Shown here piece by piece: positions 27,187 through 35,917 of a stretch of DNA of 64,000 nucleotides. Origin of the DNA: Rheinheimera sp. A13L (lineage in GTDB: Bacteria > Pseudomonadota > Gammaproteobacteria > Enterobacterales > Alteromonadaceae); the NCBI RefSeq assembly GCF_000217935.1, contig NZ_AFHI01000012.1, positions 1 through 64,000 on the forward strand. Reading direction: 5' to 3'. Every line of letters begins with the position of its first letter. Position 1 is the stretch's first letter. Below the pieces are notes generated by a model, which saw only the letters and a program-made list of their open reading frames with translations, was not told where the DNA came from and did no database searches. Made by a program: the position numbers and the translations under genes.

Positions 27187-27807
27187 TTAGATGAAAGCAC
27201 TGCTATCGCCTGCACCCTGACGAATAACTACAGGGTTGTCTTCGGATAAATCAATCACTGTGGTGTGGTTTTCAGCAATCACGCCACCGTGAATTATTAA
27301 ATCCACCTGACGCTCTAATTGGTCGCGCATTTCTTCCGGATCCGCTTCAGCAAAATCATTGCCAGGCAAGACTAAAGAGCTCGACATCATAGGTTCACCC
27401 AGCTCTTCCAATAGCGCCAACGCAATTTTGTTTTGCGGAATACGTAAACCTACGGTCTTTTTCTTGTCGTTTAACAAACGCTTAGGTACTTCCTTAGTGC
27501 CTTTTAAAATAAAAGTATAAGCACCAGGGGTGTGGTTTTTAATTAAACGAAAGGCACTGTTTTCTACCTTGGCATACACAGATAACTCAGAAAAATCGCG
27601 GCACATCAACGTAAAGTGATGTTCTGTACTCATCTGACGGATTTGCAAAATGCGCTCCAGCGCCGCTTTATCGCCTATATGGCAACCCAAAGCATAACCA
27701 GAATCTGTAGGGTAAATCACCACCCCACCTTGCTTGATAATATGCACAGCCTGTTTGATTAAACGTTGCTGCGGATTCTCAGGATGAACATAAAAAAACT
27801 GGCTCAT
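27187..27807 (-). CDS. YciO-type Sua5/YrdC family protein
   Basis: 206 residues of the YrdC/Sua5 fold: IIKQGGVVIYPTDSGYALGC, then ALERILQIRQMSTEHHFTLM, PGAYTFILKGTKEVPKRLLN, KKKTVGLRIPQNKIALALLE, and VIDLSEDNPVVIRQGAGD at the C-terminus. True TsaC/Sua5 enzymes make threonylcarbamoyl-AMP for t6A; the YciO branch is a homologue of uncertain activity. The yciO-rnm-trp neighbourhood is the same as in E. coli, which favours the YciO branch. Confidence 0.88.
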   Translation of the reverse strand: MSQFFYVHPENPQQRLIKQAVHIIKQGGVVIYPTDSGYALGCHIGDKAALERILQIRQMSTEHHFTLMCRDFSELSVYAKVENSAFRLIKNHTPGAYTFILKGTKEVPKRLLNDKKKTVGLRIPQNKIALALLEELGEPMMSSSLVLPGNDFAEADPEEMRDQLERQVDLIIHGGVIAENHTTVIDLSEDNPVVIRQGAGDSSAFI

Positions 27808-27875
27808 AAATTCTTCTTATTCTCTGCACTTGTCACTAAAGTATGTTTAAGCAATAGCAATAAATTTGTTAAAAA

Positions 27876-28739
27876 TCAAGATGAAAGCTGCGCTGATTCA
27901 GGTTCTGGCAACAACCAGTCGTGCCACACCGGAGTCACATCATCGGTAAAATACAGTTGGCGGCCCAGCTCATTCCATGGCGTTTCCTGATGAAAATCAG
28001 ACCCAGCTGATGCCGTTAAACCAAACTTCTGACAGAGCATCCAGACCTGACGTTTTTGCACTGGCGTCATCTGGGCAGACGCCACTTCCATAGCTTTGCC
28101 ACCAGCGGCAGAAAACTCTTCCGCTAAACGGGTCAGCCAACGGCCGTTCAGTTTGTATTTCAACGGATGGGCTAAAACCGGAGTACCGCCTGCGGCTAAA
28201 ATCCACTGTACAGCGTCTTGCAGTGGCACCCAGTTGTTTGGCACATAACCCGTATTACCGCGGCTTAAATACTTTTTAAACACTGAATTCATTGAGCTGG
28301 CTTTACCAATCTGTACCAGATAACGGGCAAAGTGAGTGCGGGTTAACGCAGCGCCATTGGCAATTTTCAACACGTTTTCCAGCACGTCCGGTATTTTGTT
28401 TTTCTCTAATCGACGTGCCATTTCTTCAGCACGTTCTACTCTGCGTTGTTGCTGGGCAGCTAAATGCTGTAAAAACACCGGGCAGTCGGTATTGATATTT
28501 AAACCCACTATATGAATTTCAAACTCGTACCAACTGGTGGATATTTCCACACCAGGGATCAAGGTTAAAGGCAGCTGTTTTTCGACAATAGCGGCACGGG
28601 CTTCGGCGAGTCCAGCAATAGTGTCGTGGTCGGTAATGGCAAGCACATCCACGCCTTTACTGACGGCTCGCTCAACCAGTTCGGTTGGGCTTAATACGCC
28701 ATCTGAGCAATAAGTGTGGCTGTGTAAATCAATTTTCAT
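27876..28739 (-). CDS. rnm: PHP-domain 5'-3' exoribonuclease Rnm (YciV)
   Basis: Ribonuclease AM family; in E. coli it trims 5' ends of 5S/16S/23S rRNA and degrades short RNAs. PHP metal ligands are visible in KIDLHSHTYCSDG (residues 2-14), LAITDHDTIAGLAEA, IPGVEISTSWYEFEIHIVGL, HPLKYKL and AGSDFHQETPWNEL. 287 residues is the usual length. Divergent from trpE, with the trp leader in between. Confidence 0.93.
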   Translation of the reverse strand: MKIDLHSHTYCSDGVLSPTELVERAVSKGVDVLAITDHDTIAGLAEARAAIVEKQLPLTLIPGVEISTSWYEFEIHIVGLNINTDCPVFLQHLAAQQQRRVERAEEMARRLEKNKIPDVLENVLKIANGAALTRTHFARYLVQIGKASSMNSVFKKYLSRGNTGYVPNNWVPLQDAVQWILAAGGTPVLAHPLKYKLNGRWLTRLAEEFSAAGGKAMEVASAQMTPVQKRQVWMLCQKFGLTASAGSDFHQETPWNELGRQLYFTDDVTPVWHDWLLPEPESAQLSS

Positions 28740-28878
28740 GAGAAGTACCTGAATAAACGGCCGTCATTGTGCCACAAAAGCACATTGGAGGCTCGATTTT
28801 CTGAAGTCAGAACTGGCCACAGCTTTTAGCCTTCTATCCACTTATACGTTTTTATTTACTGTTATAACCAAACAGGGC

Positions 28879-28908
28879 TTGACGGCCATTTGAATTCAGG
28901 GTTTTATA
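28879..28908 (+). promoter_or_regulatory. candidate trp operon promoter
   Basis: TTGACG (28879-28884) and TTTATA (28903-28908) at 18 nt (or TTTTAT at 17 nt) lie about 40 nt before the first leader peptide. No clear TrpR operator palindrome was found. I see no good second promoter between the two attenuators. Confidence 0.55.
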
Positions 28909-28950
28909 GAGGCGTTTTCAAGATAAAGCACAAGAATGGATTTATAGCCA

Positions 28951-29004
28951 ATGCAATTTCAGACAACAACTCAAACTCACATTTGGTGGTGGCATACTCC
29001 TTAA
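28951..29004 (+). CDS. trp operon leader peptide 1 (three consecutive Trp)
   Basis: 17 codons encoding MQFQTTTQTHIWWWHTP then TAA. Three Trp codons in a row (28984-28992) are the mark of an attenuation peptide. GGA lies about 10 nt upstream of the ATG. The stop is followed at once by the antiterminator strand ACGGGC and a strong terminator, as in known trp leaders. Not translated into a functional protein; its translation would sense charged tRNA-Trp. Confidence 0.8.
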   Translation: MQFQTTTQTHIWWWHTP

Positions 29005-29070
29005 CGGGCGTGTGGAGGCGTTGTATTCGCTATAAAACCAGGCCCGTTTCGAAAGATGCGGGCTTTTTTT
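29004..29070 (+). promoter_or_regulatory. trp attenuator 1 (terminator/antiterminator)
   Basis: Terminator: GCCCG (29042-29046) plus TTTC pairs with GATG plus CGGGC (29059-29063) around a GAAA loop, one mismatch, followed by T7 (29064-29070). The alternative antiterminator pairs ACGGGC (29004-29009) with GCCCGT (29042-29047). A ribosome stalled at the WWW codons would leave ACGGGC free to form the antiterminator. Confidence 0.8.
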
Positions 29071-29123
29071 ATGTCTTTTTACAGAGTTTTATCAAGGCTT
29101 TTAACAAAAACAGGTTTGCAAAA

Positions 29124-29174
29124 ATGAAAATGGCACAACAAAGATTCTGGCGTTGGTGGCGATTTCCTGGTTAG
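29124..29174 (+). CDS. trp operon leader peptide 2 (three Trp, WRWW)
   Basis: 16 codons encoding MKMAQQRFWRWWRFPG then TAG. Three Trp codons within four positions mark it as a second Trp-sensing leader. CAGG lies 9 nt upstream of the ATG. The peptide sequence is unrelated to leader 1 apart from Trp content, so this is not a simple recent duplication. Confidence 0.83.
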   Translation: MKMAQQRFWRWWRFPG

Positions 29175-29230
29175 CGGGCCGGACAATTATTGTCCGAACA
29201 CAGCCAAAAAGCCCGCTTGATGCGGGCTTT
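29174..29230 (+). promoter_or_regulatory. trp attenuator 2 (terminator/antiterminator)
   Basis: Terminator: AAAGCCCGC (29208-29216) pairs with GCGGGCTTT (29222-29230), loop TTGAT, T-run partly in the stem. Antiterminator: GCGGGC (29174-29179), overlapping the leader stop, can pair with GCCCGC (29211-29216). A separate hairpin CGGACAA/TTGTCCG (29180-29196) lies between the two arms. 24 nt separate its end from the trpE ATG. Confidence 0.83.
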
Positions 29231-29254
29231 CTAATATAAATTTCAGGATAAAAC

Positions 29255-30832
29255 ATGAACTTACAACAAATCACCAGTACCACAGGGCAAGTAGCCAGCT
29301 TTAGCCAGACGCTGAGTATTCAGCCTGATCCGCTACAAAGCTTCAGGGCCCTGACCAATCAGGGCCAAATGGCGTTATTGTTAGAATCAGCTGAAATTGA
29401 CAGCAAAAACAGCTTAAAAAGCTTGATGCTGATTGATGCGGCTTTACGTATTGAATGCAACGGCTTACGGGTTCAGGTTGAAGCTTTAACCGATAATGGC
29501 AAAACCTTATTACCTTATCTGGCGTCCTTGCTACAAGGCAAAGCAGAACTGCAACTTGAAGATCGCGGGTTGACAGTACAGTTTGCCAAAGCAGACCCAC
29601 TGCTGGATGAAGAAAGCCGTTTATTATTGCCCAACTCACTGACAGTATTGCGTTTGCTGCAACAGCAACTGCAGAACAACAGCGACGAGCCACTGGCAGT
29701 TTTTTTAGGGGGTGTGATTGGTTACGATTTAGTGGCTATGGTAGAAGACTTACCTGAAGTGCCTACTGCTGAAAACCAATGCCCTGATTATCTGTTTTAT
29801 TTGGCTGAAACCTTGTTGGTGGTTGATCATCAGGCAGGCAATAGCCGCTTGATTGGTAATGTATTTTGTGGCGCTGCAGCCCAGCAACAGTATTTTGTGA
29901 TAGGACAGCGTCTGTCAGAACTACAGCAACTGTTGCAACAGCCTGCTCAGGCAACCACTGCACAATCTGTAGCTGCAGCTGAAGTGAAAGTCGACATCAG
30001 TGATGCAGATTTTGTCGCTCAGGTGGAAGCGCTGAAACAAAACATAGTGGCAGGTGATGTATTTCAGGTGGTGCCATCACGCTGTTTCAGCTTGCCCTGC
30101 CCTGATCCACAAGCAGCCTACGCCAAACTGAAACAACAAAATCCCAGCCCTTATATGTTTTACCTGCAGGACAGAGATTTCAGCTTATTTGGTGCCTCTC
30201 CTGAGTCGGCGTTGAAGTATGAAGCGGCCACAGCCCAAGTAGAAATTTACCCTATAGCAGGCACTCGCCGCCGTGGTTTTGCCGAGAATGGCAGCATAGA
30301 CCGCGATTTAGACAGCCGCATTGAGCTGGAGCTGCGTCAGGACGAAAAAGAGAAAGCCGAACATTTAATGCTGGTCGATTTGGCCCGTAACGATGTAGCC
30401 CGTATTAGTGTGCCGGGCAGTCGTTATGTTAAAGAGCTGCTGAAAGTAGACCGTTATTCCTACGTCATGCATTTAGTCTCCCGTGTGGTCGGCACTTTAA
30501 AAACTGAACTGGATGCACTTCATGCCTATCAGGCCTGTATGAATATGGGCACTTTGGTGGGCGCGCCTAAAGTACGGGCGGCGGAACTTATTCGTGGTGT
30601 CGAGAAAAAGCGCCGTGGCAGTTATGGCGGTGCTGTCGGATATCTGGCTGGCAATGGCGATTTTGATAGCTGTATCGTCATTCGCTCGGCTTATGTGCAA
30701 AACGGCATGGCGTATATTCAGGCTGGCGCAGGTGTGGTGTACGACAGTGTGGCGCAAGCCGAAGCAGATGAAACCCGCAGCAAAGCTCAGGCGGTGATTA
30801 ACGCTATTCAGTCTGCAGGAGCTTTCGTATGA
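29255..30832 (+). CDS. trpE: anthranilate synthase component I
   Basis: Forms anthranilate from chorismate and ammonia or glutamine with TrpG. The Trp feedback-binding LLES motif is present (ALLLESAEI, about residues 39-46). The chorismate-binding C-terminal half shows DVFQVVPSRCFSLP, PIAGTRRRGFAENGSIDRDL, HLMLVDLARNDVARIS and GTLVGAPKVRAAELIRGVEK. AGGA lies 7 nt before the ATG. 525 residues, typical. Its stop overlaps the start of the mini-ORF at 30829 (ATGA). Confidence 0.97.
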   Translation: MNLQQITSTTGQVASFSQTLSIQPDPLQSFRALTNQGQMALLLESAEIDSKNSLKSLMLIDAALRIECNGLRVQVEALTDNGKTLLPYLASLLQGKAELQLEDRGLTVQFAKADPLLDEESRLLLPNSLTVLRLLQQQLQNNSDEPLAVFLGGVIGYDLVAMVEDLPEVPTAENQCPDYLFYLAETLLVVDHQAGNSRLIGNVFCGAAAQQQYFVIGQRLSELQQLLQQPAQATTAQSVAAAEVKVDISDADFVAQVEALKQNIVAGDVFQVVPSRCFSLPCPDPQAAYAKLKQQNPSPYMFYLQDRDFSLFGASPESALKYEAATAQVEIYPIAGTRRRGFAENGSIDRDLDSRIELELRQDEKEKAEHLMLVDLARNDVARISVPGSRYVKELLKVDRYSYVMHLVSRVVGTLKTELDALHAYQACMNMGTLVGAPKVRAAELIRGVEKKRRGSYGGAVGYLAGNGDFDSCIVIRSAYVQNGMAYIQAGAGVVYDSVAQAEADETRSKAQAVINAIQSAGAFV

Positions 30833-35113: not shown

Positions 35114-35917
35114 ATGCAACGTTATCAGCAGTTATTCAGCCGCCTTAGCGATACCAAACAAGGTGCTTTTGTGCCATTCGTCACTATGGGCGATCCGGGT
35201 CTTGAGCTGTCTTTTGACATTATTAAAACTTTAATAGACGCAGGTGCCGATGCGTTGGAGCTGGGTATTCCCTTCTCCGACCCAATAGCCGACGGCCCTG
35301 TGATCCAAAACGCCAATATCCGTGCTTTAGCCGCAGGTGTCACTCCTGCTCAGTGTTTTGAGCTGATAGGCCGTATTCGTCAGTACAACAAAGACATTCC
35401 TATCGGCTTGTTGCTGTACAGCAATCTGGTGATGGCTAAAGGCATAGATAGCTTTTACCAGCAGGCACAACAAGCCGGTGTCGATTCTATTCTGATCGCC
35501 GATGTGCCACTTCATGAAAGCAAGTTATTCAGAAACGCTGCTATGAAACATGACATAGCACCTATTTTTATAGCGCCGCCCAATATCACTGATGACAGCT
35601 TACGTGAACTGGCCTCTTATGGCCGTGGTTATACGTATCTCCTGAGCCGTGCCGGTGTCACAGGCACTGAAACTCAGGCCACTATGCCTGCCAGCACATT
35701 GATTAACAGATTAAAAGAATACAATGCAGCCCCTACTTTACTGGGCTTCGGTATCTCCAAACCAGAGCATGTTAAAGCTGCGATTGAAAGTGGTGCAGCA
35801 GGTGCTATTTCAGGTTCAGCTATAGTGCAAATCATTGAAAAACATCAACATCAGCCAGAAACCTTACTCAGTGAACTGTCTGCTTTTGTTCGAGAGATGA
35901 AAGCGGCTACTAAATAA
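35114..35917 (+). CDS. trpA: tryptophan synthase alpha subunit
   Basis: Cleaves indole-glycerol phosphate to indole. Catalytic region [18 protein letters not shown] (Glu about residue 50), Asp in [20 protein letters not shown], and phosphate site [10 protein letters not shown] and [12 protein letters not shown]. 267 residues. AAGGAG lies 6-7 nt before the ATG. End of the trp operon. Confidence 0.97.

Follow-up and report, generated by a model that had tools for sequence, protein, structure and literature searches.

Organization of the trp leader region

The window analysed here, a stretch of 64,000 nucleotides from Rheinheimera sp. A13L, carries a trp operon that begins with trpE and continues to about position 35917 (the names of the trp genes in the window are our own reading of the translations). 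Within the ~300 bases that precede trpE we found two leader ORFs with Trp codons, each of them followed by an intrinsic terminator. The features of the region are:

28879..28907, + strand: promoter candidate TTGACG-17 nt-TTTTAT, sigma-70-like, likely start of the trp transcript
28951..29004, + strand: leader ORF 1, MQFQTTTQTHIWWWHTP, with three consecutive Trp codons (WWW) at 28984-28992; conserved in 12/12 clade genomes
28993..29014, + strand: strand 1:strand 2 pause-type hairpin of leader 1, CAUACUCCUUAACGGGCGUGUG; RNA fold of -8.0 kcal/mol, present also in the fold of the whole leader
29003..29009, + strand: antiterminator strand 2 of leader 1 (AACGGGC), which starts within the stop codon and forms 7 pairs with 29042-29048
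29040..29070, + strand: intrinsic terminator of leader 1, strands 3 and 4, with a seven-T run; hairpin of -14.7 kcal/mol
29124..29174, + strand: leader ORF 2, MKMAQQRFWRWWRFPG, with its Trp codons arranged as W-R-W-W; Trp codons conserved in 12/12 clade genomes
29173..29179, + strand: antiterminator strand 2 of leader 2 (AGCGGGC), which starts within the stop codon and forms 7 pairs with 29211-29217
29180..29196, + strand: hairpin CGGACAATTATTGTCCG nested in the antiterminator loop of leader 2, seen in RNA folds and near-invariant in 9 aligned clade sequences
29208..29230, + strand: intrinsic terminator of leader 2, AAAGCCCGC-TTGAT-GCGGGCTTT; stem of -12.2 kcal/mol without the flanking A-T pairs
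29255..30832, + strand: trpE, anthranilate synthase component I, the first gene of the trp operon (from the ORF list)

The textbook trp attenuator comprises one leader per operon. At this locus leaders 1 and 2, each taken separately, consist of a short ORF with clustered Trp codons located upstream of a Trp biosynthetic operon and of an intrinsic terminator that follows the ORF, the U-tract of the window's leader 2 being weak. The antiterminator duplexes AACGGGC:GCCCGTT (leader 1) and AGCGGGC:GCCCGCT (leader 2) have 7/7 pairs each, and their second pair, A-T in leader 1 vs G-C in leader 2, represents a compensatory difference between the leaders. In the window's sequence leader 2 gives a hairpin of -10 kcal/mol that reaches into the Trp codons, a less clear candidate for a strand 1:strand 2 hairpin than the one in leader 1. 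ORF 2 has an alternative start 6 nt further downstream, and its ribosome site in the window is, by eye, weaker than the AGGA of most clade members; the T-tract of leader 2, interrupted in the window (TTTCTAAT), is longer in most of them. An earlier sequence-only reading of this DNA described two Trp-rich frames with their own terminators and antiterminators, all parts of which were recovered at the positions it gave. Its further claim that the second attenuator is complete holds as far as the presence of the parts is concerned, with the correction that the window's second U-tract and, by eye, its ribosome site are weaker than those of most clade members.

Conservation in Rheinheimera

One strong match to trpE was found in each of the 22 Rheinheimera genomes searched. 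Twelve of the 22 (the window's own included) constitute the window's clade, with TrpE sequences 93-96% identical to that of the window, and all 12 retain both ORFs with their Trp codons, the 7-pair antiterminators and both terminators; in L005 the antiterminator of leader 1 includes one G-U among its 7 contiguous pairs. Conservation in 12/12 genomes rules out a chance pairing of ORFs and hairpins, and it is the strongest evidence against chance and the decisive one. In MAFFT alignments, in which strands 3/4 are shifted between rows, strands 2/3 are nearly invariant within a genus; the compensatory differences given in this text were taken from the paired strands themselves. The spacer between the leaders varies across the clade, with indels and small inserts.

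Of the two leaders, leader 1 shows the higher conservation in the clade. The sequence-only reading would have been refuted by a first leader not conserved among close relatives, and this leader turned out to be conserved base by base, most third positions included. Such a pattern would also fit a scenario in which the terminated leader 1 RNA (about 28915-29070) acts mainly in trans as a small RNA, a role reportedly played by the trp leader of Sinorhizobium, with leader 2 as the actual attenuator. We regard this scenario as extremely improbable, since leader 1's own predicted stem explains the conservation, and the single leaders of relatives, with the same WWWH design, sit directly before trpE.

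Leader 2 varies across the clade in its N-terminal part and in the sequence around it; the middle codon of its Trp motif is CGT, CAC or CTT. Combined with the weak second U-tract and ribosome site of the window, this variation could suggest that leader 2 is a relic, decaying or redundant, and that attenuator 1 does everything. We find this very unlikely, as the Trp codons, strand 2, the nested hairpin and strands 3/4 of leader 2 exhibit a mean identity of 93% (9 of the 12 clade sequences aligned), next to a spacer that accumulates indels.

The other 10 genomes of the genus (group B) retain attenuator 1 and carry a second Trp-codon ORF (SWRWWQFS...), which in L017-L019 stops about 15 nt before the start of trpE. 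No second terminator was called in 7/10 of these genomes and a weak one was called in 3/10, so leader 2 need not act by termination everywhere.

Small inserts, some of them hairpin-forming, were observed in the spacer of L003/L024 and L013 and past terminator 2 in L004, L010, L011 and L012; by eye, they resemble short mobile palindromes set in leader regions that are homologous apart from them. A third Trp ORF in L003/L024 was rejected as spurious, as it reads across the spacer.

Shuffling tests, folding and database searches

For the antiterminators, the segment that separates the Trp codons from the terminator was subjected to mononucleotide shuffling and scanned for duplexes (contiguous runs, with G-U pairs counted); 4% of the shuffles for leader 1 and 1.5% for leader 2 (200 draws) matched the observed duplex score. 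The antiterminator-only stretches fold into the antiterminator, with energies at the level of shuffles (z -0.07 and -0.54). The significance of the antiterminators per sequence is modest.

The sequence-only reading had proposed RNA folding and a search with the Rfam Trp_leader model as checks. The whole-leader folds are more stable than those of dinucleotide shuffles (z -2.4 and -2.5), with z of only -1.9 when both leaders are folded together. The leaders match Trp_leader (RF00513) with 30.5 and 24.9 bits, below the gathering cut-off of 41, and were not filed as members of the Rfam family. Zero Trp_leader matches at gathering score were obtained with Rfam release 15 in 16 sources, among them the single-leader L028, which suggests that the cut-off suits a narrower group. 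In 27500-30500 Rfam gave 13 matches at E up to 10 with no T-box family among them, and no T-box was found at gathering score either. Searches of Pfam and NCBIfam gave no family match for four longer leader peptides, and a search for a plasmid copy of the leader gave no match.

Promoter, stall geometry and proposed mechanism

TTGACG-17-TTTTAT is the best promoter-like site upstream of leader 1 in 12/12 clade genomes, with identical hexamers and spacing, at a per-genome shuffle frequency of 0.05-0.17 and with no place in the list of a stricter scan. In a consensus scan of the spacers of the 12 clade genomes, no promoter candidate was shared throughout the clade and none exceeded shuffles in any genome, in agreement with the sequence-only reading, which saw no good promoter between the leaders; an internal promoter feeding trpE was rejected on these grounds. 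With the sole clade-wide promoter candidate located upstream of leader 1, one transcript would pass both switches. In 4 of 32 Pseudoalteromonas loci (L068, L075, L085, L093) the spacer contains a TTTATA-TATAAT candidate.

The geometry of ribosome stalling was assessed under the assumption that 15 nt, counted from the first base of the A-site codon, are covered by the ribosome. In leader 2, all three Trp codons are stall positions that leave strand 2 free in 12/12 clade genomes. In leader 1 the first and second Trp codons do so in the same genomes, and a stall at the last one overlaps strand 2 by 2 nt. A ribosome at the stop codon masks strand 2 in both leaders and in all 12 genomes. RNA folds computed with these masks gave the antiterminator (7/7 pairs) for the stall and the terminator for the stop, again for both leaders in 12/12. 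Among 11 Pseudoalteromonas loci treated, L066 is an exception, as its scored leader-2 duplex lies too near the Trp codons to be freed by a stall, and in several others this applies to the last one or two Trp codons.

We propose that the trp operon transcript, started from one promoter (about 28879-28907), would run through two ribosome-mediated Trp attenuators, independent of each other, on its way to trpE. Once translation of a leader peptide is complete, the ribosome at the stop codon would cover strand 2, and strands 3 and 4 would form the terminator, with terminated transcripts ending at about 29070 or 29231. When the ribosome instead stalls at the Trp codons, strand 2 would stay available for pairing with strand 3 and transcription would continue. 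Full-length trp mRNA would then require two successive escapes, hence the basal expression should be roughly the product of two read-through fractions. Compared with one attenuator, two may provide a wider range and a steeper response, in a genus where TrpR is undetected (see below).

The sequence evidence supports, and is best accounted for by, a reading in which two trp attenuators, each complete in itself, lie in tandem with no promoter between them. We are quite confident that two serial ribosome-mediated attenuators behind one promoter, with multiplied control, represent the best explanation of the region. What the sequences themselves show is the parts, their conservation and pairing geometry, spacers free of a common promoter candidate and no match to TrpR; termination in vivo, independence of the attenuators, multiplication and compensation for TrpR we infer. 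The WWW and WRWW leaders may differ in sensitivity, as the sequence-only reading proposed.

Relatives and the origin of the doubling

Among the best 80 of 567 trpE loci, two leader-plus-terminator units are present in 32/32 Pseudoalteromonas loci (in 29, each of the two antiterminators passes the threshold) and in an Algicola MAG (L049), while a single unit was found in 37 loci, for instance in Alishewanella, Arsukibacterium, R. pacifica, R. baltica, Alteromonas, Bowmanella and Alkalimonas. The remaining 10 of these 80 loci belong to Rheinheimera or MAGs of the tandem or group-B type, and several of them overlap the 22 genus genomes.

A quick TrpE tree was calculated for 93 rows, including 14 of the 32 Pseudoalteromonas loci and 20 of the 120 order-wide genomes (see below), with duplicates and L004 dropped. 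On this tree the tandem state requires 3 changes, and the three states together require 8 changes vs 39.5 with shuffled labels. Long branches meet on the tree and three weak-terminator cases were scored as tandem, so that gain and loss are not separable on it.

A recent duplication in Rheinheimera is ruled out by the different leader peptides, and on this point the sequence-only reading stands for this genus. In the Pseudoalteromonas loci L050 and L054 the two leaders look very similar by eye, so that one may have arisen there by duplication or conversion. We also considered whether this genome doubles its leaders as a rule and rejected this on the basis of three operons inspected: the his, phe and leu leaders of the same genome (upstream of hisG, pheA and leuA, the Phe leader by eye) are each single. 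They are located on contigs C2, C63 and C52 of G000 (L248-L250) and encode MIINIHWHHHHHLSD (his), a Phe-rich peptide and MNSNQRFANLLTLLVLLNRPRGFVHW (leu).

Second Trp-codon ORFs across the order

We sampled 120 upstream regions across the order from the listed best trpE matches, a sample that is biased to the nearer families and excludes the window's genus; the 107 with a detectable first attenuator were used and the 13 others were excluded. A second ORF was defined by two Trp codons within four residues, located between attenuator 1 and trpE. It was found in 45/107 regions vs 1.6 expected from dinucleotide shuffles, mostly with no terminator; a second terminator was called in 4 of the 45. Genus g11 (Pseudoalteromonas type) accounts for three of these, and the fourth is a weak hairpin (L185). 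For the terminator-less ORF, slow codon context and translational control of trpE are possibilities.

These numbers bear on the scenario in which only attenuator 1 controls transcription and the second Trp ORF acts on the translation of trpE (via coupling, reinitiation, RBS access or Rho), its hairpin being secondary. Such a role would be consistent with the terminator-less form being the commoner one (45/107 order-wide loci with the ORF, 4 with a called second terminator), with the 7/10 group-B Rheinheimera that lack a second terminator and with the position of the second ORF in L017-L019, which ends about 15 nt before the trpE start. For the window's clade we nonetheless judge it unlikely, as the terminator stem, the 7-pair antiterminator and the position of the stop codon are kept in 12/12 genomes and none of these is required by translational control. 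Two serial attenuators remain our preferred interpretation for this clade.

The TGG-Arg-TGG motifs upstream of trpE use CGA in 48/50 cases (f11, 18/18; f12, 4/4; f25, 18/18; group-B Rheinheimera, 8/10), counts that are non-independent, as many of the genomes are close kin. In the window's trpE, CGA accounts for 0/27 Arg codons.

The TrpR repressor

TrpR (PF01371) was not found in any of 13 Rheinheimera genomes, in a search that detected the E. coli control. Across the order, 193 of 394 genomes have a TrpR match at E <= 0.001. Among the 107 sampled genomes, the second Trp ORF is present in 43/75 genomes without a strong TrpR match vs 2/32 with one, if six weak matches (E 5e-5 to 8e-4) are counted as lacking, and in 40/69 vs 5/38 otherwise; the association is clustered by family and was counted on genomes rather than on a species tree. 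There are counter-examples of both kinds: f9, f20 and most sampled f1 genera have neither a strong TrpR match nor a second ORF (one leader), and two TrpR-positive f11 genomes possess the second ORF. In Shewanella the trp operon is predicted by a regulon study to lie outside TrpR control (PMC5343134), hence carrying TrpR need not mean repressing trpE. Considering the counter-examples and this prediction, the loss of TrpR is neither sufficient nor strictly necessary for the second ORF.

It is possible, if somewhat doubtful, that in those lineages of the order in which TrpR went undetected a second Trp-codon sensor between the attenuator and trpE replaces the repressor. According to this joint reading, the common form would be the terminator-less Trp-CGA-Trp ORF, probably acting on trpE translation or Rho, and a full second intrinsic attenuator would have appeared separately in Rheinheimera and Pseudoalteromonas, the two attenuators multiplying to the range of the E. 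coli repressor plus attenuator. In the same reading, the GCGGGC/GCCCGC core common to both leaders could even link the two, since antitermination at leader 1 leaves its strand 4 able to pair with strand 3 of leader 2.

Comparison with known regulatory systems

The leaders resemble the enterobacterial trpL attenuator (RF00513) in having adjacent Trp codons, strands 1-4 and an intrinsic terminator before trpE, but here two units occur in series, both under the Rfam gathering cut-off. The trpL attenuator of E. coli works together with TrpR, and in a delta-trpR strain attenuation alone does not silence (PMC13178558), whereas in Rheinheimera TrpR was not found in the genomes searched.

Serial control of a trp operon by the same signal, tRNA charging, is known from the tandem T-boxes that precede trp operons in Firmicutes (three in one species), for which a pseudo-cooperative, digital-like response has been predicted (PMC12452182). 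T-boxes, however, bind tRNA directly, while the sensor here would be a ribosome translating the leader ORF, and the phylum is different. Another partial parallel is mgtCBR of Salmonella, with two leader ORFs in one leader mRNA that act independently (PMC3641672). That system senses ATP and proline and its stem-loops are unlike intrinsic terminators, whereas both ORFs described here carry clustered Trp codons and both leaders have intrinsic terminators; according to the mgtCBR authors, nutrient biosynthesis genes are normally under a single attenuator (PMC3641672). A theory of sensitivity exists for ribosome-mediated attenuation (PMC1183508).

The portion consulted of a leader gene survey (PMC4833913) contains nothing on tandem trp leaders; a Shewanella RNA survey is also available (PMC2659441). 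Among the open-access titles and abstract openings listed, we found no description of tandem ribosome-mediated trp attenuators. The doubled trp attenuator is a variant of a known mechanism and not a new kind, and a prior description is possible. Being conserved in two genera with the repressor undetected, it would offer a direct test of how same-signal attenuators combine, in which multiplication, steepness, noise and the takeover of control at the RNA level from a DNA-binding repressor can be addressed; it also draws attention to the second Trp-codon ORF before trpE, in which the Trp-Arg-Trp motif nearly always uses one Arg codon.

Additional leader variants

A TGG-CGA-TGG ORF with no credible terminator was observed in three other families (L133-L135, L140, L142, L148-L163 and others). 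In L141, L178 and L183-L187 (f25) the Trp-CGA-Trp ORF is extended into a conserved small protein of about 44-45 aa located directly before trpE, with a C-terminus consisting of DIASQVIRQIPDD plus two residues; the one member tested gave no Pfam or NCBIfam match.

In L104, L107 and L116, which represent three f1 genera, the second Trp ORF encodes K.WFIWWL.P[LI]YAG-stop, about 50-130 nt before the trpE match; in L104 the first attenuator was not detected. Residues other than Trp are conserved in this peptide as well, a hint of nascent-chain stalling.

In leader 1 of f11 (e.g. L134, L148-L163) the antiterminator GCGAGC:GCTCGC is fully Watson-Crick, and the terminator contains a G-U pair (GCTCGC:GCGGGC). 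Judging from the pairing of these strands, GCGAGC:GCTCGC represents a compensatory change specific to the antiterminator.
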